A DNA stretch of 64,000 nucleotides. Source: Streptomyces sp. NBC_00523. Lineage in GTDB: Bacteria; Actinomycetota; Actinomycetes; Streptomycetales; Streptomycetaceae. This document shows, one piece after another, positions 5,960-31,278 of the stretch (positions are counted from its first letter, which is position 1; every line of letters starts with the position of its first letter). The notes below the pieces were generated by a model that did no database searches, had not been told where the DNA came from, and saw nothing but the letters and a program-made list of their open reading frames with translations. The stretch covers positions 6,696,001 through 6,760,000 of the forward strand of contig NZ_CP107836.1 of the NCBI RefSeq assembly GCF_036346615.1, read 5' to 3'. A program made the translations under genes and the position numbers.

Positions 5960-6000
5960 GGCGGCCATGCTCCTTCGTGCACCGCGCTCCCACGGATATC

Positions 6001-6014
6001 GGAGAGCGCTCTCC
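6001..6014. promoter_or_regulatory. LacI-type operator GGAGAGCGCTCTCC in front of the GH3 beta-glucosidase
   Basis: A second exact copy of the 14-bp palindrome, 41 bp upstream of the GH3 start. Two identical sites flanking the GH3-lacI pair indicate that the LacI protein at 2343 controls both genes. Confidence 0.82.
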
Positions 6015-6537
6015 CGGCAGTCGCGCCCAGGGTCCCCGCTCGCCGCCGACCGTGTCAATGGGGGCCCGGAGCGGGCCTGTTCGGGCTCCCGGTCCAGGGG
6101 CGGGGCTTACCATGCCCCCGGTCCTTGTTCTGGGGGAAACATGAGAGCCATACGCGTCACGGGCGTCCTCGCCCTCGTCGTACTCCTGGCCGCGTGCGGC
6201 GGCAGCGGTCCCGGCCCGGAGCCGAGCCCGTCCGCCTCGCCGCCCGTCGCCGTCCGGCTGGAGAACATCGGCGCGCCGGGGGACACCCGCCTCGGGCTGG
6301 CGATGCACCTGGACAACGAGGGGCCCACCCGCCCCGGAGTCCGCGTGCGGGTGCACATCGGAGCCTCCCGGACCGGTGACCCCGTTCCGGAGCTGGAGGA
6401 GAGGTCCGACGCGGGCTGGAAGGTCATCGCGCTCGCCGCCGACCGGGACAAGCGCGGCTGGACCGGCACGTTCCGGACGAGCATGCCGAAGGGCGGCCTG
6501 CTCGGCTTCCTGGATGTCACCCCGCACGCCGGACCCC

Positions 6538-6714
6538 GGGGCCTGTCGTCAGACTGGCGTCTGCCGGGCGACGCCATGCACGCACTCTCGCCGCACCGGC
6601 CCCAGACCCCAGTACATCCAGTACAGGGGTCTGGGGCCGGCACGCCGAGAGCACGCACCTGACGCCGCCCGGCCCGCCCTCCGGGCGGACGACGCCAGTC
6701 TGACGACAGACCCC
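6538..6714. mobile_element. 177-bp MITE-like element with 24-bp terminal inverted repeats
   Basis: The ends 6538-6561 and 6691-6714 are inverted repeats matching at 23 of 24 positions, beginning GGGGCCTGTC on one side and GGGGTCTGTC on the other. An 8-bp direct repeat GACCCCGG (6532-6539 and 6709-6716) overlaps the ends and may be the target duplication. The interior is itself an imperfect palindrome centred near 6618, so the whole element can fold into one long hairpin. It has no transposase gene, as expected for a non-autonomous element moved in trans. It splits the lipoprotein gene at 6141. Confidence 0.78.
6596..6640. repeat. Central hairpin of the 177-bp element
   Basis: CCGGCCCCAGACCCC (6596-6610) pairs perfectly with 6626-6640, and the stem continues through GTAC pairs around a 5-base loop with one mismatch. 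It could act as a terminator inside the broken gene. Confidence 0.7.
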
Positions 6715-7404
6715 GGTTCGAGGGCGACGAACTCCCGGTGGACGTCACCCTGTCCGACGGTTCCGGGACCCTCGCGCGCGGTCACGCGTCGGTGCGCCCG
6801 GCCACCCTGTCGCTCGACCACGCCACGGTGGACGAGCCCGCCGCGCTGGGCCACGGGCGCTGGACCGAGGTGACGTACACCGTCGTCAACCACTCCCACA
6901 GCGGCTACCCGCAGGCCCAGGTTCAGGCCGAATTCGGCGCCTGCGAGGCGGGACCGGACAACCCGCTCGAAGGGGTCGGCTGCTCCGGCTCGCGGCGCCA
7001 TGCCGTGACCACCCGCCTGCGCACCCAGTGGTACGACGACGGCCGCTGGCAGGACGTCTCCGCGCCGGACGACGGCACCCTGCTCGCCGAGACGTTCACC
7101 CTGCCGCTGGGGGAACTGCCCGCGGACTCCAGGCGGAAGGTCCGGCTCAGGTTCGCCGGGACCGGGGACCTCGACGGAGAGGACCGCCTGCTCACGATCA
7201 CGTCGCGGGTCAACGGCCAGGCCGTCGGCGCGTCGGAACGCTCCCTGGGCACCGGTTGGCCGCTGACCTTCGCCCTCCGCTGACCGCCCCGCACCCGCGC
7301 CGCGCGGCGATGGCCGAAACGTACCGTGGTCTTGTCATCACCCGCTGTCTGCCCATAAGTTGACCGCTTGCGACATGTCCTACAGCCAGTGGGGGAGCCA
7401 AGTC

Positions 7405-8694
7405 ATGGCCGCGAACGGACGGCACCGCAGATACCAGCCGAGCCGCATCAACCGGGCTTCGCTCACCGTCACGGCAGGAGGCGCAGGCCTCGCCCTCCCG
7501 CTCCTCACCGCCGCCTCGGCGGGCGCCGCTTCGGCGGACGTCTGGGAGAAGGTCGCCGCCTGCGAGTCCACCGGCAACTGGCACATCAACAGCGGCAACG
7601 GCTACTTCGGCGGCCTCCAGTTCACCCGCTCGACCTGGGCGGCGTACGGCGGCACGGTCTACGCGGCGCGCGCCGACCTCGCCACCAGGGACCAGCAGAT
7701 CGCCATCGCGGAGAAGGTCCTGGAGGGCCAGGGCCCCGGCGCCTGGCCGGTCTGCTCCGGAAAGGCGGGCCTGACCCGGGGCGGTGCCACGCCCGACGTC
7801 AGCCCGCAGAGTGAGCGCAGGGCGAGCGTCCCGACGCCCAAGAAGCAGGACAACGCGTCGTTGTCGTCCCGCCCCGTGCGGACCAAGCAGTCCACACCCC
7901 CGGCCACGCCGACCACGGTCCCGGGCAAGCGCGAGTCGTACACCGTGACGCCGGGCGACTCGCTCTCCGGAATCGCGGACGATCAGCACCTCCAGGGCGG
8001 CTGGCAGCGGCTCTACGCGGCGAACCGCGCGGTCGTCGGCGACGACCCGGACCTCATCTTCCCCGGCCAGCGCCTGACCCTGACCGGAACGCCCAGGACG
8101 GCCACGAAGGCCGAACCGAAGACGGCCTCCAAGGCGGTCCCGAAGGCAACGCCGAAGACGGCGCCGAAGCCCGTCCAGACGCCCAAGCCGCAGCAGAAGC
8201 AGCAGACGAAGCCGCAGCCGAAGAAGACCCAGCCGCAGCGGACCGAGACCCGCAAGACCCAGACGCACAAGACCGAGCACGCGCAGAAGCACAGCGGACT
8301 CACCGCCCCCGTCGTCGCCCGCACCGGCACCCCGTACCACCAGGCCGGTTCCTGGTCCAGCGGCTACCACACGGGTGTCGACTTCCCCGTCCCCACCGGC
8401 ACCTCCGTCAAGGCGATGGCGGCGGGCACCGTCGTATCGGCGGGCTGGGCGGGGCCGTACGGCTACCAGGTCGTCATCCGGCACGGGGACGGCAAGTACA
8501 GCCAGTACGCGCACCTGTCCTCGCTGCTCGTGCGCGGCGGGCAGCACGTCGGCGGCGGCCAGCGGATCGCCCGCTCCGGCGCCACCGGCAACGTCACGGG
8601 GCCGCACCTGCACTTCGAGGTCCGTACCGGCCCCGAGTACGGCTCCGACATCGACCCGCTGGCCTACCTCCGGGCGGGCGGCGTCAAGGTCTGA
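7405..8694 (+). CDS. Secreted Rpf-type transglycosylase with LysM and M23 peptidase domains
   Basis: A 429-residue secreted peptidoglycan-remodelling enzyme combining three modules. After a signal peptide ending near AASA comes a resuscitation-promoting-factor lysozyme-like domain (about residues 43-125: DVWEKVAACESTGNWHIN, with the catalytic Glu in ACES). A LysM wall-binding domain follows (about 172-222, YTVTPGDSLSGIA). A long Lys/Pro/Gln/Thr-rich linker then leads to an M23 metallopeptidase domain (about 300-425) with its HTGVDF and HLHFE zinc motifs. The architecture resembles the Streptomyces Rpf protein that carries a LytM/M23 domain. The start at 7405 has GGGGGAG upstream; longer starts at 7360 lack one. 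A role in spore germination or wall turnover is inferred. Confidence 0.93.
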   Translation: MAANGRHRRYQPSRINRASLTVTAGGAGLALPLLTAASAGAASADVWEKVAACESTGNWHINSGNGYFGGLQFTRSTWAAYGGTVYAARADLATRDQQIAIAEKVLEGQGPGAWPVCSGKAGLTRGGATPDVSPQSERRASVPTPKKQDNASLSSRPVRTKQSTPPATPTTVPGKRESYTVTPGDSLSGIADDQHLQGGWQRLYAANRAVVGDDPDLIFPGQRLTLTGTPRTATKAEPKTASKAVPKATPKTAPKPVQTPKPQQKQQTKPQPKKTQPQRTETRKTQTHKTEHAQKHSGLTAPVVARTGTPYHQAGSWSSGYHTGVDFPVPTGTSVKAMAAGTVVSAGWAGPYGYQVVIRHGDGKYSQYAHLSSLLVRGGQHVGGGQRIARSGATGNVTGPHLHFEVRTGPEYGSDIDPLAYLRAGGVKV

Positions 8695-22099: not shown

Positions 22100-22474
22100 T
22101 CAGAACACCGCGCGCGCCACGGCGGCCCCGGCGAAGGAGAGGCCCAGCCCGGTGCCGACGGTGAGCAGCAGATAGGCCGCCGCCAGGCCCAGCCGGCGGG
22201 CCGAGTTGAGGGTGAGCAGTTCGTACGAGAACGTCGACCAGGTCGACAGGGCCCCGCAGAAGCCGGTGGCCAGCAGCAGATTCAGCCGGGTGCCCAGATC
22301 ACCGTCGGTGGCCGCCTCCGCGACGAAGCCGAGGAACATCGCCGCACCCGTGTTGGCCGCGAAGGTGCCCCAGGGGAAGGCGCTGTGCAGGCGGAACTTC
22401 GCGTCCACGCCGAGCAGATAGCGCACCGGCGCGCCCACCAGGCCGCCGGCCAGCACGAGCAGCCAGTCGGTCAT
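22100..22474 (-). CDS. crcB: CrcB/Fluc fluoride channel subunit
   Basis: A 124-residue small membrane protein with four transmembrane helices, of the Fluc family that exports fluoride as a dual-topology dimer. Family signatures are present: GGLVGAPVRYLLG near the N-terminus, FPWGTFAANTGAAMFLGF, and GFCGALSTWSTFSYE, which carries the conserved Thr/Ser/Phe track of the pore. Its ATG overlaps the stop of the upstream crcB paralogue by 4 bp, so the two subunits are cotranslated and probably form a heterodimer. Confidence 0.94.
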   Translation of the reverse strand: MTDWLLVLAGGLVGAPVRYLLGVDAKFRLHSAFPWGTFAANTGAAMFLGFVAEAATDGDLGTRLNLLLATGFCGALSTWSTFSYELLTLNSARRLGLAAAYLLLTVGTGLGLSFAGAAVARAVF

Positions 22475-22941
22475 GACGCCTCGCCCCGCTCATCGTAGGA
22501 CCGGCCGAAGGCGAAGTGCGCCGTGAACGCCCCGGCCGTCACTGCGGCCAGCGCCGCCACCACGGTCAGCACCAGGCAGCCGGTCGCGTAACCGGGCTGA
22601 TGGTTCTCGAAGAGCTGCCGCACATTGTCCGTGTAGTGCGAGAACGAGGTGAAGCCGCCGAGCACCCCGGTGCCCAGCAGCGGACTGATCAGCCGGGGAG
22701 CCCCGGGGAAGCGCAGCTTCAGGGTGACCATCAGGGCCCCCATCAGGAGGCAGCCCACCGTGTTGATCAGCAGGACCGTCCAAGGGAAGGCGAAGGTCCC
22801 GGTCGGCCACAGGCGTTCGGCCGCGTACCGGGCGCAGGCCCCCGCGGCCCCGCCGACCGCGACGGCCACCACGACCGGGAACTGCACGCCGGGATGGTGG
22901 TCGGGGTGGCTGTGCTGGTGCAACCGCATCTTACGGGCCAT
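22471..22941 (-). CDS. crcB: CrcB/Fluc fluoride channel subunit (upstream paralogue)
   Basis: A 156-residue member of the same family, first in the pair. After a His-rich N-terminus (LHQHSHPDHHPG) come GGAAGACARYAAERLW, FPWTVLLINTVGCLLMG and TGVLGGFTSFSHY, matching the Fluc signatures. The start is placed at 22941 (MARKMRLHQ); the next ATG at 22929 is possible and the ORF is open further upstream without a ribosome site. No fluoride riboswitch motif was recognised in the roughly 200 bp upstream, which are shared with the divergent urea channel gene. Confidence 0.92.
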   Translation of the reverse strand: MARKMRLHQHSHPDHHPGVQFPVVVAVAVGGAAGACARYAAERLWPTGTFAFPWTVLLINTVGCLLMGALMVTLKLRFPGAPRLISPLLGTGVLGGFTSFSHYTDNVRQLFENHQPGYATGCLVLTVVAALAAVTAGAFTAHFAFGRSYDERGEAS

Positions 22942-23139
22942 CCCGCGGATGCTACGGATGACGGCCGGGCCCTGGGGGCCGGGACGGCCGCGCGCCTCCC
23001 GCGGTGTACCCGAGTGGACTACCCGGATCGCTCCCGGCGCGAAGAAGCCAACTTTGTATGACTTCATGGCATATGACGGACGTCCTCGTGCATCCGTCGC
23101 GCCCCGACCCCATGTGACGACGAGCCGCTGGAGCCTGCC

Positions 23140-24099
23140 TTGTCCCTCGCCGAGCCGCATCTCGTCCGGAGACTGGAGAGCCGCCAGCCGTCCGCGTACC
23201 TCCTGGCGTCACTGCGAGGCGTCGGGCAGGTCGACTTCCAGGCCAGCCTGTACACCGGCGCCGCGATCCTCGCCGGCCTCTGGGTGGCGGGCTGGCGGAC
23301 GGGCCTGTTCGCGACGATCGGGACGCTGGTCGCCACGGCCACCGCCTACGCGCTGGCCGTCGACCGGGGGAGCATCGCGCTCGGCATGCAGGGGTTCGCG
23401 GGCTGCCTGACCGGCATCGCGCTCGTCTCCTCATTGGGCCACCACCCGGCCACCTATGTGCTGACCGTCGTGGGCGCCGTCCTCTGCGTCATCCTCATGG
23501 CGACCCTGGCCACGTTCCTCACGCCGTACAACCTCACGCCCATGACCGCGCCCTTCTGCCTGGTCTCCGGCGTGATGGTGGTCGGCGCCCCGTCCTTCGA
23601 CCGGGTCTGGCACGGCGCCCCGGCGGCCGTCTCCAGCACGACGAGCGGGGACACCGGGATCACCTGGAACGACCTCTGGCACGCCTTCTTCAACAACGTC
23701 TCGCAGATCTTCCTGGTCGAGAGCTGGTACGTCGGACTGATCATGCTCGTCGGACTGGCCTTCGCCGGCCTGCGCGTCGTGCTCTACGCGGCCGTCGGCA
23801 GCATCGCCGGAATCGTTGCCGCCTGGCTGCTCGGCGCGCCCACCGACCTGATCGCCAACGGCATCTACGGCTACAACGCGGTGCTCGTCGCCATCGGCCT
23901 CGGCGCCGTCTTCATGGCCAACACCACCTGGACCGCGGCCTACGCGGTCTTCGGCGCGATGGTCAGCACCGGCCTCACCGCCACCCTGACCTCCTTCTTC
24001 AAACCGTTCGGCGGCCACACCTTCACCTGGCCGTTCATCCTCACCACCTGGACGCTGCTGGCGGCCGTCCCGCTGCTGCCGCGCCTGCGCCGCAGCTGA
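23140..24099 (+). CDS. Urea transporter (UT family channel)
   Basis: A 319-residue membrane protein of the urea transporter family, first gene of the urea-use cluster. It has about ten hydrophobic segments and two homologous halves; each carries the family motif, seen as LTPYNLTPMTAPFCL and FFKPFGGHTFTWPFILTTW. The start is a TTG at 23140 with GGAG six bases upstream. Fifty-four bases separate it from ureA, so it is probably in the same operon. It would admit external urea for the cytoplasmic urease. Confidence 0.93.
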   Translation: MSLAEPHLVRRLESRQPSAYLLASLRGVGQVDFQASLYTGAAILAGLWVAGWRTGLFATIGTLVATATAYALAVDRGSIALGMQGFAGCLTGIALVSSLGHHPATYVLTVVGAVLCVILMATLATFLTPYNLTPMTAPFCLVSGVMVVGAPSFDRVWHGAPAAVSSTTSGDTGITWNDLWHAFFNNVSQIFLVESWYVGLIMLVGLAFAGLRVVLYAAVGSIAGIVAAWLLGAPTDLIANGIYGYNAVLVAIGLGAVFMANTTWTAAYAVFGAMVSTGLTATLTSFFKPFGGHTFTWPFILTTWTLLAAVPLLPRLRRS

Positions 24100-24153: not shown

Positions 24154-24459
24154 ATGAACCTCGCCCCCCGCGAGATCGACAAACTGCTCGTGTACGTCGT
24201 GGCCGACCTGGCCCGCAAGCGCCAGGACCGCGGCCTCAAGCTCAACTACAGCGAGTCGGTCGCGCTGATCACCGAGGCGATCCTCGAAGCGGCCCGCGAC
24301 GGAAAGAGCGTCGCGGACTGCATGGAGCTGGGCCGCCACATCGTGGGCGAGGACGCCACCATGCCCGGCGTACGGGAGATGCTCGGCCTCCTCCAGGTCG
24401 AGGCGTCCTTCGTGGACGGCACCAAGCTGGTCTCCGTCCACGACCCCATCGGCGGCTGA
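24154..24459 (+). CDS. ureA: Urease gamma subunit
   Basis: A 101-residue structural subunit of the nickel urease (UreA-UreB-UreC). It begins MNLAPREIDKLLVYVVADLARKR and has the typical LNYSESVALI, ILEAARDG, MELGRHI and VPGV-like (MPGVREML) segments. Length is normal. It is followed two bases later by the His-rich CbiX-like gene, which separates it from ureB. Confidence 0.97.
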   Translation: MNLAPREIDKLLVYVVADLARKRQDRGLKLNYSESVALITEAILEAARDGKSVADCMELGRHIVGEDATMPGVREMLGLLQVEASFVDGTKLVSVHDPIGG

Positions 24460-24461
24460 CC

Positions 24462-25340
24462 ATGGCCGGGAACGCGGCCGTCATCGCCGTCTGCGGCCAC
24501 GAAGCCGCGTACGGCCGGGCGCTGGAAGGACGGCTCGGGCCGGACGTGGACATCGTCCCCAACGGGCGCGCCCTCTTCCGGGCCGCCGCCGCCCGTCTGC
24601 GCCGGGGCGAGCGCGTCGTCGTCGTCCCGATGACCCTCGGCCGTGAACCCGGGCTCGTCGCGGACACCGCCCGCACCCTGCGTGCCGTCCCCGACGCCGG
24701 CCGGGGCGCCGTGCTGCTCGCCGAGCCGTTCGGCACCGCCCAGCACCTCGTCGCCTGGCTGCGTGCCGCCGCCGGACGGGTGCCCGCCGACTCCGCGATC
24801 CTCCTCGCCGCCCCCTCCGGCGACCCCTTCGAGGACGCCGAACTCCACCGCGTCGCCGCGCTCGTACGCCGCTACGGGCGCCACGAGCTGGTCGAGGTCG
24901 CCTTCGACGGCAGCGACCCCGGCCCGGCCGGAGGCGTCCGGCGCTGCGCGCTGCTCGGCGCGGAACGCGTGGCGCTGCTGCCCGCCTCGTTCGCGGCCGT
25001 GGGCCCGGGCGGCGCGGGGCCCGTGCCGGTGGCGGACGCGGGCCCCCTCGTGCCGGACCCGGCGCTGCGCCGGGTGCTGGACGAGCGCGTGGCCGACGCG
25101 CACCGGCGCTGGGACGAGCACGGCGACGACGGGATCACGACCGGCCTGGCGGCGGCCGACCACCACGGCCACGCGCACACCCACCCGCCGGGCGAGGGCC
25201 ACGGACACAGCCACGGCCACGACCACGACCACGGCTCCGCGCACGGACACCCGCACGAGCACGGCCCCGGGACCGGGCACCGGCATCACCACCACCCGTC
25301 CGCCGCTGGGGCGGACCTTGGCATCAGGAGCATCGCATGA
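24462..25340 (+). CDS. CbiX-like protein with a histidine-rich C-terminus, inside the urease operon
   Basis: A 292-residue protein between ureA and ureB. The first 210 residues resemble the class II chelatase fold of CbiX/SirB (sirohydrochlorin cobalt- or nickelochelatase): [17 protein letters not shown] near the N-terminus, then [24 protein letters not shown] and a second half with similar topology. The C-terminus (about residues 233-278) carries about 20 His in 46 positions as GH, DH and HHHH runs. His-rich tails bind nickel in UreE, HypB and similar proteins, and this operon has no ureE. The inference is a nickel chaperone or store for urease. It overlaps ureB by 4 bp. Cobalamin metabolism is an alternative, but context speaks against it. 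Confidence 0.85.
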
Positions 25341-25813
25341 CGTTCCGTCAGCAGTACCTGTACGGGGACGACCCCATCGAACTCAACGCGGGCCGCCGCA
25401 CGGTCAAGGTCACCGTGAGCAACACCGGCGACCGGGCCGTGCAGGTCGGCTCGCACTACCACTTCTTCGAGGTGAACTCGGCGCTCTCCTTCGACCGCGA
25501 GGCGACCCTGGGCACGCACCTCAACATCGCCGCCGGCACCTCCGTACGGTTCGAGCCCGGCGGGACGCGCGAGGTCGAGCTCTGCGCGTACGCCGGAACC
25601 GGCCGGCTCACCGGCTTCAGCGGGCTGCTCAACGGCAGCCTCGCCTCCCACCCCGCCCGCGTCGAAGCCGTTCGCAAGGCCATCGAACGCGGCTTCCAGG
25701 GTGCGCGGAACGCGCCCGCCGGGACCGGCTCCAAGACGGGGTCCAAGGGTTCCGGCAAGGACGGGGCCAAGAGTTCCAAGGCCGCCAAGGACAAGAAGAA
25801 GGGTTCGCGCTGA
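25337..25813 (+). CDS. ureB: Urease beta subunit with a Lys/Ser/Gly-rich tail
   Basis: A 158-residue beta subunit. Residues 1-105 match the family ([48 protein letters not shown]), while the last 45 residues (about 114-158: [19 protein letters not shown]) are a low-complexity basic extension that most UreB proteins of about 105 residues lack. It starts within the last codons of the CbiX-like gene and its TGA overlaps the ATG of ureC by one base. Function of the tail is unknown. Confidence 0.96.
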
Positions 25814-27537
25814 TGCCCATCCTGCCCCGCAAGCAGTACACCGACATGTTCGGTCCGACGGTCGGTGACCGCTTCCACCTCGGCGACACCAACCTCGTCG
25901 TCGAGGTCGAGAAGGACTACAGCGAGGGCCTGTACGGCGACGAGGTCGTCTACGGCGGCGGCAAGACCATGCGCGACGGCATGGCCTCCGACCCGCAGGC
26001 CACCGCCGCCCAGGGCGCGCTCGACACCGTCATCACCAACGTGGTCGTCATCGACCCGATGGTGGGCGTCGTCAAGTGCGACATCGGCATCAAGGACGGC
26101 TTCATCGTCGGCATCGGCAAGTCCGGCAACCCGCAGACCCAGAACAACGTCGATCCGGACCTGGTCATCGGCCCCGGCACCGAGGCCATCGCGGGCGAGC
26201 ACCTGATCGCCACCGCGGGCGCCATCGACAGCCACGTCCACCTGATCGCCCCGCAGCAGGCCGAACAGGCGCTGACCAACGGCATCACCACCCTCATCGG
26301 CGGCGGCACCGGCCCCACGGACGGTTCCAACGGCACCACCTGCACCCCGGGCCCGTACAACATCGGCCTGCTCCTCCAGGCGGCCGAGACGCTGCCGGTC
26401 AACCTCGGGATCATGGGCAAGGGCAACGGCAGCCTGCCGGGCGCCCTGGAGGAGCAGGTCACCGCCGGTGCCTGCGCGCTGAAGGTGCACGAGGACTGGG
26501 GCTCCACCCCGGCCGTGATCGACAACGCGCTGAACGTCGCGGACGAGCACGACGTCCAGGTGGCCATCCACACCGACAGCCTGAACGAGGGCGGGTTCTT
26601 CGAGGACACCCGCTCCGCCATCGACGGCCGCGCCATCCACACCTTCCACAGCGAGGGCGCGGGCGGCGGGCACGCCCCGGACATCCTGCGCGTCACCGGC
26701 GAGCCCAACGTCCTGCCGTCCTCCACCAACCCGACGCTGCCGTACACCAAGAACTCGGTGGACGAACTCCTCGACATGGTGATGGTCTGCCACCACCTCA
26801 GCCGCGAGATCCCCGAGGACGTCTCCTTCGCGGACAGCCGGGTCCGGGCCGAGACGATCGCCGCCGAGACGGTGCTGCACGATCTCGGTGTGATCAGCAT
26901 GTTCTCCTCCGACTCCCAGGCGATGGGCCGTATCGGCGAATCCGTCACCCGGGCCTTCCAGACCGCGCACCACTGCAAGGACAAGCTCGGGGTGCTGGAG
27001 GGCGACTCGGAGCGCAACGACAACCAGCGGGTGCTGCGCTACCTCGCGAAGATCACCATCAACCCGGCCATCGCCACGGGCATCTCCGACTACGTGGGCT
27101 CGATCGAGAAGGGCAAGCTCGCCGACATCGTGCTCTGGCCCATCCACTCCTTCGCCGCCAAGCCGAAGATGGTCATCAAGGGCGGCCTCGTCTCCTGGGC
27201 CCAGATGGGCGACCCCAACGCCTCGCTGCCCACCCCGCAACCGGTCACCTACCGGCCGATGTTCGGGCAGTACGGCAAGGCGCTCCAGGCCACCCACGCC
27301 ACGTTCATGTCGCAGGCGGGCATCGCCGCAGGCGTACCGGAGCGGCTCGGCCTGGACCGCAAGGTCCTGCCCGTGCGCCGCACCCGCACCATCGGCAAGC
27401 ACAACATGGTCCGCAACGACGTCCTGCCGGACGTGCAGGTCGACCCGGAGACGTTCAAGGTCACGCTCAACGGCAAGGTCGCCACCATCGACCCGGCCGA
27501 GACGCTGCCCCTGAACCACCTCTACTTCCTGGTCTAG
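25813..27537 (+). CDS. ureC: Urease alpha subunit
   Basis: The 574-residue catalytic subunit hydrolysing urea to ammonia and carbamate. Active-site residues are in place: H141 and H143 (SHVHL), the carbamylated K224 in [10 protein letters not shown]253 in [12 protein letters not shown], His in [15 protein letters not shown], the flap C326-H327-H328 in MVCHHLSRE, and D367 in SSDSQAMGR. Length is normal. The mature enzyme needs two nickel ions inserted with UreF, UreG and UreD, all encoded just downstream. Confidence 0.98.
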
Positions 27538-28318: not shown

Positions 28319-28939
28319 ATGGACGACAACGTACTGCGGGTCGGCATCGGCGGACCCGTCGGCTCCGGCAAGACCGCGCTCATCGAGGCGCTGGTCCCGG
28401 TCCTGATCGCACGCGGTCACCGCCCCGCCGTCATCACCAACGACATCTACACCCAGGAGGACGCCCAGCACGTCCGCCGCACCCTGGCCGGTGTCCTCGA
28501 ACCCGAGCGCGTCGTCGGCGTCGAGACGGGCGCCTGCCCGCACACCGCCGTACGCGACGACCCGACGATGAACCTCGCGGCCGGTGCCGAGATGCTGGAA
28601 CGCTTCCCGGACACCGACACGCTCCTGTACGAGTCGGGAGGCGACAACCTCACCCTGACGTTCAGCCCCGCCCTGGTCGACCTCTTCCTCTTCGTGCTCG
28701 ACACGGCGGAGGGCGAGAAGATGCCCCGCAAGCGCGGACCCGGCATCACCGACTCCGACCTCCTCGTCATCAACAAGATCGACATCGCCCAGTACGTGCG
28801 GACGGACATCAACGTCATGGAGTCCGACGCCCACCGGGTCCGGGGCGACCGCCCCGTCGTCCTCACCGACTGCCTGACCGGGGTGGGCGTGGACGAGATC
28901 GCCGGCTACCTCGAATCGCGCCGCAAGGTGCTGATCTGA
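28319..28939 (+). CDS. ureG: Urease accessory GTPase UreG
   Basis: A 206-residue SIMIBI-class GTPase supplying energy and nickel for urease activation. The P-loop is GGPVGSGKTAL (residues 11-21), with VVGVETGACPHTA, which contains the nickel-binding CPH motif, ESGGDNL and the specificity motif NKID. The N-terminus lacks the His-rich stretch of some UreG proteins; here the His-rich part is on the CbiX-like protein. It is preceded by AGGAG. Confidence 0.98.
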   Translation: MDDNVLRVGIGGPVGSGKTALIEALVPVLIARGHRPAVITNDIYTQEDAQHVRRTLAGVLEPERVVGVETGACPHTAVRDDPTMNLAAGAEMLERFPDTDTLLYESGGDNLTLTFSPALVDLFLFVLDTAEGEKMPRKRGPGITDSDLLVINKIDIAQYVRTDINVMESDAHRVRGDRPVVLTDCLTGVGVDEIAGYLESRRKVLI

Positions 28940-28940
28940 C

Positions 28941-29888
28941 ATGCCGCTCGCCCCGCAACGGCCGAAGGACCGGCTCACCGAGGAGTACTACACGCCCGTC
29001 CGCCTTCCCCCGGACGTGGCGGCTCTGGCCTCCGTCCCGGACACCCTGGCGCCCGGCTCCCCGGCCAAGGTCGGCATCCTCGACCTCGCCTTCGCCGTGC
29101 GGGGCGGGCGCACCGAACTCGTCGGGCGCTACCAGAAGACCCCGCTCCAGATCATGCGCCCGCTGTGGATCGACCCCACGCAGCCCGGCATGAGTTACGT
29201 GTATCTGATGGCGACCGGCGGCGGCATCGCCCAGGCCGACCGCTACCGGATGGACTTCCACTGCGGCCCCGGTACGCAGGTCCACCTGACGACCCAGGCC
29301 GCGACCAAGGTCTTCCGGATGGAGCACGACTACGCGAGCCAGCGCGTCCACCTCACCGCCGAGGCCGGCAGCTACGTCGAATACCTCCCCGACCCGCTCA
29401 TCCCGTTCCGCGACGCGCGGTTCTACCAGCGCACCGAGGTCACCGTCGCGCCCGGCGCCACCGTGCTCGTCGGTGACACCCTCACCGCCGGCCGGCTCGC
29501 CCGGGGCGAGCGCCACGCGTACCGGATGCTCGCCACCGACCTCCGCGTCAGCCGGCCCGACGGCACCCTCCTCGCCATCGACACCCTGCGCCTGGCGCCG
29601 GGGGCCGGAGTCCTCGGGCCCGGGGTGTTCGCCGGGCACGACCACGTCGCCTCGCTCTTCGTGGTGACCGACAGCGTTCCCGCCGCCGGGCTCGCCGACA
29701 CCCTGCACGAGGCGCTGGCCGGGCTCGGCGTCCTGTACGGGGTGAGCGTGCTGCCCCGGGACTGCGGGGCGTGGGTGCGGCTGCTCGACGACAGCCCGGT
29801 CCGGGTCGCCGAGGCGCAACGGGCCGTCTGGCACGCCGTACGCCGTCTGCTGACCGGCCACCCGCCGCCCGACCTGCGCAAGCCGTAG
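28941..29888 (+). CDS. ureD: Urease accessory protein UreD
   Basis: A 315-residue scaffold protein (UreD/UreH) that binds apo-urease and receives nickel from UreG through UreF. It has ATGGGIAQADRYRMDFHCGPGTQVHLTTQAATKVFRM in pieces typical of the family, followed by YLPDPLIPFRDARFYQRT. It starts two bases after the ureG stop and is followed 40 bases later by the ammonium transporter gene. Confidence 0.94.
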   Translation: MPLAPQRPKDRLTEEYYTPVRLPPDVAALASVPDTLAPGSPAKVGILDLAFAVRGGRTELVGRYQKTPLQIMRPLWIDPTQPGMSYVYLMATGGGIAQADRYRMDFHCGPGTQVHLTTQAATKVFRMEHDYASQRVHLTAEAGSYVEYLPDPLIPFRDARFYQRTEVTVAPGATVLVGDTLTAGRLARGERHAYRMLATDLRVSRPDGTLLAIDTLRLAPGAGVLGPGVFAGHDHVASLFVVTDSVPAAGLADTLHEALAGLGVLYGVSVLPRDCGAWVRLLDDSPVRVAEAQRAVWHAVRRLLTGHPPPDLRKP

Positions 29889-29928: not shown

Positions 29929-31278
29929 ATGATTACCGCTCCCGCGCCCATGCCGGCCGCGTACGACTCCGGGGACACCGCCTGGCTGCTCGCCGCCACC
30001 GCCATGGTCCTGCTGATGACGCCCGGCCTCGCGTTCTTCTACGGCGGCATGGTGCGCACCCGGCACGTGCTGATGATGATCAAGATGAGCTTCGCCGCGC
30101 TGGCCTTCGGCACGCTCGTCTGGTGGGTCATCGGCTACACCCTGGCGTTCGGGCCGGACGTCGGCGGCGCCGGGGTCATCGGGAACCTCGACCACGTGTT
30201 CATGAAGGGCATCGAGCTCAACACGCTGACCGGGGCCATCCCCACGTACATCTACAGCACCTTCCAGATGGGCTTCGCCGTCATCACCGTGGCGCTGATC
30301 AGCGGCTCCATCGCCGACCGCGCCACGATGCGGGGCTGGCTCGTCTTCGTCGTGCTCTGGTTGCTGATCGTCTACATCCCGATCGCGCACTGGGTGTTCG
30401 ACAAGGACGGCTGGATCGTGAAGCACCTCGGCGCCCTCGACTTCGCGGGCGGGCTGCCGGTGGAGCTCAACTCCGGGGTCGCCGGGCTCGCCGTCGCGCT
30501 CGTGCTGCGCGCGCCCCGCGACTTCGCCCGCCGGGAGGAGCGCCCGAACAACATCCCGCTCGTGGTCGTCGGCGTCGGGCTGCTGTGGTTCGGCTGGTTC
30601 GGCTTCAACTCCGGCTCCGCGCTCACCGACCAGGGCACGGCCGCGGCCGCCTTCATCAACACGCAGCTCGGTGCGGCGGGCGCCATGGTGACCTGGCCGC
30701 TGGTCGAGAAGTGGCGCACGGGCCGGGTGACCACCATGGGCGTCGTCTCCTCCGCCGTCGCGGGCATGGTCGCCATCACCCCGGCGTGCGGTGAGATCAA
30801 CACCCTGGGTGCGGTGATCACCGGCCTGGTCGTCGGGGCGGTGAGCGCGTACGCGGTCACCCTCAAGTTCCGCTTCAACGTGGACGACACGCTCGACGTG
30901 GTCGGGGTGCACGGCGTCGGCGGCTTCATCGGCCTGGTCATGGTCGGCCTCTTTGCCACGGCCCGCATCAGCGGCAAGGAGGGCCTGTTCTACGGGGGCG
31001 GCTGGGGCCTGCTCGGCAAGCAGCTGGTGGCGATCGTGTCCGTGATCGCGTTCTCGTTCATCCTCACCTGGCTCATCGCCAAGGCCGTCGACCTGACCGT
31101 CGGCTTCCGGGCGAAGGAGGAGTACGCCAACGTCCCGGGTGAGGAGGCGGAGCGGGCGTACGACTTCCAGACCGCCGAGCGGCTCGGCGCGCTGGTCTCC
31201 GGGCGGCGGGTGGCGAGCGACGACGAACTGGTCCAGCAGATCAGCCGGTTGCTGCGGGCCCGCGAGAGCGAGAAGTAG
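29929..31278 (+). CDS. Ammonium transporter (Amt family) with Glu in place of the first pore His
   Basis: A 449-residue, eleven-helix transporter of the Amt/MEP family, ending the urea cluster. Signature segments are FFYGGMVRTRHVL near the N-terminus, FQMGFAVITVALISGSIADR, and VVGVHGVGGFIG with the second pore His, H328. The first of the two pore histidines, expected in the DFAGGxxVHxNxG motif, is Glu here (E179 in DFAGGLPVELNSG). This is the arrangement of yeast Mep1/Mep3 rather than E. coli AmtB. The cytoplasmic tail is about 60 residues. It would recover ammonium or move urease-derived ammonium. No glnK gene follows. Confidence 0.95.
   Translation: MITAPAPMPAAYDSGDTAWLLAATAMVLLMTPGLAFFYGGMVRTRHVLMMIKMSFAALAFGTLVWWVIGYTLAFGPDVGGAGVIGNLDHVFMKGIELNTLTGAIPTYIYSTFQMGFAVITVALISGSIADRATMRGWLVFVVLWLLIVYIPIAHWVFDKDGWIVKHLGALDFAGGLPVELNSGVAGLAVALVLRAPRDFARREERPNNIPLVVVGVGLLWFGWFGFNSGSALTDQGTAAAAFINTQLGAAGAMVTWPLVEKWRTGRVTTMGVVSSAVAGMVAITPACGEINTLGAVITGLVVGAVSAYAVTLKFRFNVDDTLDVVGVHGVGGFIGLVMVGLFATARISGKEGLFYGGGWGLLGKQLVAIVSVIAFSFILTWLIAKAVDLTVGFRAKEEYANVPGEEAERAYDFQTAERLGALVSGRRVASDDELVQQISRLLRARESEK

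Follow-up and report, generated by a model that had tools for sequence, protein, structure and literature searches.

A CbiX-like protein with a histidine-rich tail encoded between ureA and ureB in a Streptomycetaceae urease lineage: a candidate nickel-supply accessory

Introduction

In organisms lacking UreE, a histidine stretch on UreG is nearly always present, Streptomyces coelicolor and Streptomyces avermitilis included, as stated in an earlier survey (PMC2770081), where Bradyrhizobium japonicum and Frankia CcI3 appear as exceptions and HypB is proposed for both. A histidine-rich region is also part of the Bacillus megaterium chelatase CbiX-L. According to PMC7689651, the N-terminal lobe of this enzyme bears His14 and His79, a pair said to mediate chelation; cobalt insertion does not require the His region, for which a function in metal storage and delivery has been proposed.

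Here, we describe a gene from Streptomyces sp. NBC_00523 encoding a CbiX-like protein with a His tail, in the following termed CbiXH, within a urease operon. The gene was analyzed in a window, i.e., the whole stretch of DNA under study with a length of 64,000 nucleotides, and compared with homologues and urease operons from the family Streptomycetaceae and the phylum. In our search of the open-licence literature, no mention was found of urease operons containing a CbiX-like gene.

Results

Gene order and coding frame

In the window, the genes follow the order UT, ureA, CbiXH, ureB, ureC, ureF, ureG, ureD and Amt, and the following features can be assigned.

23140–24099, plus strand: UT-family urea transporter (PF03253, E 2.8e-82), adjoining the operon in most relatives
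24154–24459, plus strand: ureA, urease gamma (PF00547, E 6.5e-41)
24462–25340, plus strand: CbiXH, CbiX-like protein with His tail, 292 aa
24462–25133, plus strand: two-lobed CbiX-like core of CbiXH, residues 1–224
25161–25298, plus strand: His-rich tail of CbiXH, residues 234–279, 20 His in 46 residues
25337–25340, plus strand: ATGA overlap of CbiXH stop and ureB start, 4 bases shared
25337–25813, plus strand: ureB, urease beta (PF00699, E 8.6e-40), with a Lys-rich C-terminal extension
25813–27537, plus strand: ureC, urease alpha, the sole PF00449 match in the genome
27543–28289, plus strand: ureF (PF01730, E 5e-35), start codon picked by eye
28319–28939, plus strand: ureG (TIGR00101), five residues ahead of the LRVGIGGPVGSGK motif, without a His stretch
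28941–29888, plus strand: ureD (PF01774, E 1.9e-54)
29929–31278, plus strand: ammonium transporter, Amt (PF00909, E 1e-107), closing the cluster

These Pfam and TIGR matches bear out an operon of ureA, ureB, ureC, ureF, ureG and ureD without ureE, as had been stated in an earlier note on this DNA. The CbiXH frame opens with ATG at 24462, separated by a gap of two bases from the ureA stop at 24459, and closes with the stop codon at 25338–25340; in 20 of 55 other CbiXH loci, the gene likewise overlaps ureB, by 4 or 7 bases. GC content by codon position corresponds to a coding frame, with a GC3 of 0.93, and comparison with five close orthologues resulted in dN/dS values of 0.35–0.50 for the core and 0.15–0.42 for the tail. 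The codon-position GC and the dN/dS values, which stay below 1 for core and tail alike, thus indicate a real and constrained gene. Nur-like sites, GlnR-like sites and promoters were searched for near the urease operon, and none was found above chance.

Past its conserved domain, UreB shows a Lys/Ser/Gly-rich C-terminal extension (25709–25813) that varies among relatives and brings the protein to 158 aa versus about 103 in the NCBIfam model. Upstream of the operon, two adjoining small membrane-protein ORFs are located on the minus strand (22100–23157), the second matching the fluoride channel CrcB (PF02537) and the first being alike by eye.

Fold family and catalytic residues

As a single sequence, CbiXH matches PF01903 at residues 120–175 only (E 8.4e-4), with a score of 20.1 bits below the curated cut-off of 22. 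When a profile of 16 CbiXH homologues was compared by hhalign with one of 30 ordinary CbiX-type proteins, however, a probability of 99.1% was obtained (E 3.6e-18 for this single comparison) over 215 columns, i.e., the whole core. The comparison supports membership of the CbiXH core in the CbiX fold family, with a homology spanning both lobes, and the designation as CbiX-like in the earlier note was borne out in this way, although Pfam alone is weak. The AlphaFold model, built from eight close sequences, is poor (pLDDT 55.9), and a spatial meeting of conserved residues is not readable from it; a fold search with this model placed chelatases near the top at E 0.01–0.03, among them CbiK (2xvz, E 0.011), with none below 0.001. 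Searching the sequences of solved structures with CbiXH gave no significant match. Two more CbiX-type proteins are encoded in the genome, neither of which has a His tail.

Of the two catalytic His of CbiX/SirB, the first corresponds to H13 in the alignment; this residue is conserved in 53 of the 56 homologues aligned, the exceptions being L085, L216 and L221. The second catalytic His (aligned position 64) is absent in all 56 homologues; Gly is found at this position in CbiXH of the window, and R, G, E, K or others occur elsewhere. All 30 ordinary CbiX possess both residues, the first one by construction, being part of the pattern used for selection, in which the second His and the tail of the ordinary copies played no part. 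The MxCxxC 4Fe-4S motif of CbiX-L is absent as well (0/57). E14, H141 and C162 are invariant, each being present in 56 of 56 homologues, and H95 is found in 54 of 56. CbiXH probably does not work as a normal chelatase, and with the Fe-S motif and one catalytic His lost, the usual metal insertion into a tetrapyrrole is unlikely. The previous argument that the chelatase activity of CbiX/SirB-type enzymes makes a nickel-delivering member plausible therefore fails at this second His.

Distribution among urease lineages

The ureases of the family can be divided into type II, with UreC sequences more than 70% identical to that of the window, and type I, at about 55%; in a tree of 73 UreC sequences, type II forms one fully supported clade. 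In addition, a more distant urease alpha, with about 44–49% identity to the one in the window, occurs commonly in the family genomes, several of which show three or more urease alpha matches. The position of CbiXH between ureA and ureB, already pointed out in the earlier note, is conserved in 55 type II operons that carry CbiXH and are readable at this site, where the ureA–ureB interval amounts to 762–1148 bases versus at most 124 bases in 41 type I operons. In Streptomyces sp. NBC_01237, a linear replicon of 1.6 Mb carries another intact CbiXH operon. In L137 (genome G074, at about 6000–8000), the CbiXH frame continues into ureB without a stop, giving a 671-aa open frame, possibly a fusion or else an assembly error.

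When operons were located via ureG instead of CbiXH in two genera, 41 of 45 assessed type II loci carried the gene, corresponding to 35 of 38 in one genus (g14) and 6 of 7 in the other (g3), after leaving out two of 47 loci (G545 at a contig end and G554, which was not fetched). The overall count of 56 operons with versus four without CbiXH is biased, since most of the 56 were fetched for having the gene, and omits the cut contigs of L010 and L012 as well as L153 and L225 at contig ends. The four operons lacking CbiXH (L148, L149, L150 and L151) occupy three places on the UreC tree, with L148 and L151 as sisters. If CbiXH was gained only once, we infer a gain at the base of type II followed by about three losses. 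At the protein level, matches at E 1e-3 were obtained in 39 of 150 family genomes, 32 of them above 100 bits and the other seven below 28 bits. Among 396 phylum genomes, scores above 300 bits were reached in only two, both from the genus of the window; the remaining matches stayed below 50 bits and resemble ordinary CbiX. Judged from these samples, CbiXH appears to be confined to the Streptomycetaceae.

Histidine-rich tail

The tail contains exactly 20 His, where about 20 in 46 residues had been noted before; of the 509 open segments that span 60 aa or more in the six frames of the window, it has the most, followed by one with 13. A 10-in-40 His window is located close to the CbiXH gene in 51 of the 56 urease-linked loci, and the remaining five (L085, L144, L226, L232 and L233) have shorter tails, still with 5–9 His. 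Overall, the tails vary widely in length and sequence, with 5 to 32 His. Because 22 of 41 type I loci also contain such a window somewhere, judged by eye mostly outside the coding frames, raw window counts were dropped and in-frame tails, dN/dS values and the comparison of homologues were used. The His run of L087 (genome G081) is out of frame with the core, due to either a frameshift or a sequencing error.

At least 8 C-terminal His are present in 21 of 28 ordinary CbiX of the phylum, and MxCxxC likewise in 21 of 28; having been found with the CbiXH core profile, these 28 proteins are nearest relatives and no random sample. A His tail unique to CbiXH is ruled out by ordinary actinobacterial CbiX often carrying one, so that the tail by itself is no sign of an adaptation to nickel. 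Zinc, cobalt and copper are also bound by His-rich tails. Probably, the CbiXH tail was inherited from CbiX-L and then varied, and it is the comparative evidence that suggests its relevance in the urease setting.

Copies of CbiXH away from urease were also encountered. In L139 and L142, representing one lineage with DNA 94–95% identical, the CbiXH core is encoded and no urease genes are present in the fetched 16 kb; the tails have at most 1 His and H95 is replaced by Q in both. In L273, an Embleya replicon, CbiXH is positioned between a urea-transporter remnant and ureB, with no ureA or ureC match, and retains both the tail and H95. These copies, from two lineages only, look like stages of decay after loss of urease.

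UreE, UreG and HypA

The genome harboring the window encodes a single urease, and no UreE_N match was detected in it, so that a ureE gene elsewhere in the genome, which the earlier note had considered as counter-evidence, was not found. This absence had been taken as telling; it is the rule, however, as none of the 150 family genomes shows a UreE_N match, though 144 of them have urease. In the phylum, 66 of 386 genomes have a urease alpha (UreC) match, 7 of 386 a UreE_N match (6 above the cut-off) and 5 both; as the number of candidates scored in each genome was limited, the UreE search may have missed single cases. Surveying whether CbiXH and ureE exclude each other was consequently nearly uninformative in a family in which no sampled genome has UreE, and the telling contrast is provided by the start of UreG.

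Ahead of the GTPase motif, 36 of 41 type I UreG proteins have a longer N-terminal start with at least three His, although the start codons are inferred ones and, in type I, the start seems too short in one or two cases (e.g., L100). UreG encoded beside CbiXH, on the other hand, has a start of 5–7 residues with at most 1 His in all 54 cases scored, i.e., without L085 (different motif, start short by eye) and L090 (start out of frame). In L148 and L151, type II operons lacking CbiXH, the UreG start contains 5 His. Of the six type II operons without visible CbiXH, two thus show a His-rich UreG and four do not, L153 and L225 among the latter being cut by contig ends. L149 and L150 have neither CbiXH nor a UreG His stretch, demonstrating that neither is indispensable; their genomes encode further ureases and HypA. 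The contrast in UreG amounts to few evolutionary events, as it mostly reflects one split between two old urease lineages. Within type II, L148 and L151 would count as one independent event for a trade between CbiXH and the UreG stretch, and L149 and L150 as two without visible compensation in the operon.

HypA is likewise without a match in the window genome. As it is found in 18 of 32 CbiXH genomes, compared to 100 of 150 in the sample, its absence is particular to this genome, and lack of HypA as a general CbiXH pattern is ruled out.

Discussion

Considering its fold family, conserved position and residue losses, in a genome with no UreE or HypA match and beside a UreG devoid of a His stretch, a role in nickel supply appears to be the best fit for CbiXH. 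We propose, at a probability of roughly 0.6, that CbiXH is a paralogue of CbiX-L and has been recruited as a urease accessory that binds nickel. This paralogue would have entered one Streptomycetaceae urease lineage as a dedicated nickel-binding protein, the core keeping the two-lobed class II chelatase fold together with one catalytic His. The tail might bind several nickel ions and hold them beside the nascent urease subunits, and the core might dock on UreG or apo-urease. By inferred nickel binding, docking and transfer, CbiXH would supply in trans to UreG the His stretch found elsewhere on UreG or UreE and, being made between the structural subunits, could do for type II what His-UreG does for type I. 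Against the accessory reading, four type II operons are without CbiXH and only two of them have a His-rich UreG. Besides, the tail is probably CbiX-L heritage, and the trade with UreG seems to rest on one lineage (L148 and L151). More tentatively, a conversion from chelatase to metallochaperone can be envisaged, in which nickel would pass from the tail to a new site in the old cleft, formed by H13 with H95 or others, and then to the His-less UreG.

From the earlier proposal of a CbiX-like nickel-delivery protein replacing UreE, the fold family, the conserved placement and the single urease without UreE have stood, whereas the arguments from ureE exclusivity, chelatase activity and the His tail have not.

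It is conceivable, though unlikely, that CbiXH acts as a nickel buffer or detoxifier, its tail soaking up imported nickel with no specific hand-over to UreG. The variation in tail length and sequence, with His numbers between 5 and 32, would suit a nickel store, and the His-rich nickel store Hpn has been linked to urease maturation in Helicobacter pylori (PMC4671568). However, a pure buffer needs neither placement between ureA and ureB nor overlap with ureB nor a core of 220 residues with invariant ones.

More doubtful still is a function as assembly factor for UreA, UreB and UreC, with the core as the working part and the tail as a CbiX-L relic. Translation between two structural subunits, the ureB overlap in 20 of 55 other loci and a tail inherited in kind would agree with it; but the sister-type ureases assemble without CbiXH, and a tail under constraint is retained in urease-linked copies but not in the two unlinked ones.

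It is quite improbable that CbiXH is still an active chelatase, with an altered metal site, which produces a nickel or cobalt tetrapyrrole and shares the operon because of a common nickel supply. In its favour, CbiX/SirB-type enzymes are able to use Ni and Co (PMC11301274 and PMC7689651), H13 is retained in 53 of 56 homologues, and of the new residues, H141 and C162 are invariant and H95 nearly so. Nevertheless, chelation is attributed to the His pair in PMC7689651, the second His of this pair is missing in 56 of 56 CbiXH homologues, and CbiXH tracks one urease lineage, not tetrapyrrole genes.

Finally, a hitch-hiking gene with no urease role, retained for some other reason, could account for the four type II operons lacking CbiXH and the two unlinked copies, but is hardly credible given a position conserved over a deep urease tree, purifying selection, and the decay that tail and H95 show after urease has disappeared.

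If the more tentative metallochaperone reading is true, CbiXH would represent a third solution for delivering nickel to urease, besides UreE and His-UreG, and, within the class II chelatase superfamily, the first protein to serve an enzyme that has no tetrapyrrole. A route from a metal-inserting enzyme, its His region being dispensable, to a metal carrier would thereby be illustrated as well. The type II lineage forms a further class of exceptions to the rule of His-bearing UreG, with the candidate donor encoded within the structural operon, and its hosts are cultivable, harmless soil bacteria.

Compared to known systems, CbiXH resembles CbiX-L of the Bacillus megaterium type, including the actinobacterial copies, in its two lobes, the first catalytic His and C-terminal His residues; in contrast to CbiXH, CbiX-L possesses the second catalytic His and MxCxxC, and CbiXH alone is found inside a urease operon. 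SirB and CfbA, class II chelatases of the same superfamily, hold the metal on a His pair (PMC11301274), of which CbiXH retains one His. With UreE, CbiXH shares the encoding in urease operons and, in the case of several UreE, a His-rich C-terminal tail, but UreE belongs to another fold family, and no UreE_N (PF02814) match was obtained for CbiXH up to an E value of 10. The His-rich proteins Hpn and Hpn-2 of Helicobacter are similarly tied to the nickel supply of urease (PMC4671568), albeit being small and without a chelatase core. The UreG proteins with a His N-terminus from Mycobacterium, type I Streptomyces and plants likely do the same job as proposed for CbiXH, offsetting an absent UreE, as proposed in PMC2770081; in the CbiXH operons, however, a separate protein bears the stretch, and none is present on UreG. 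The parts of CbiXH are of known kinds, and their combination has no counterpart in the open-licence papers searched.
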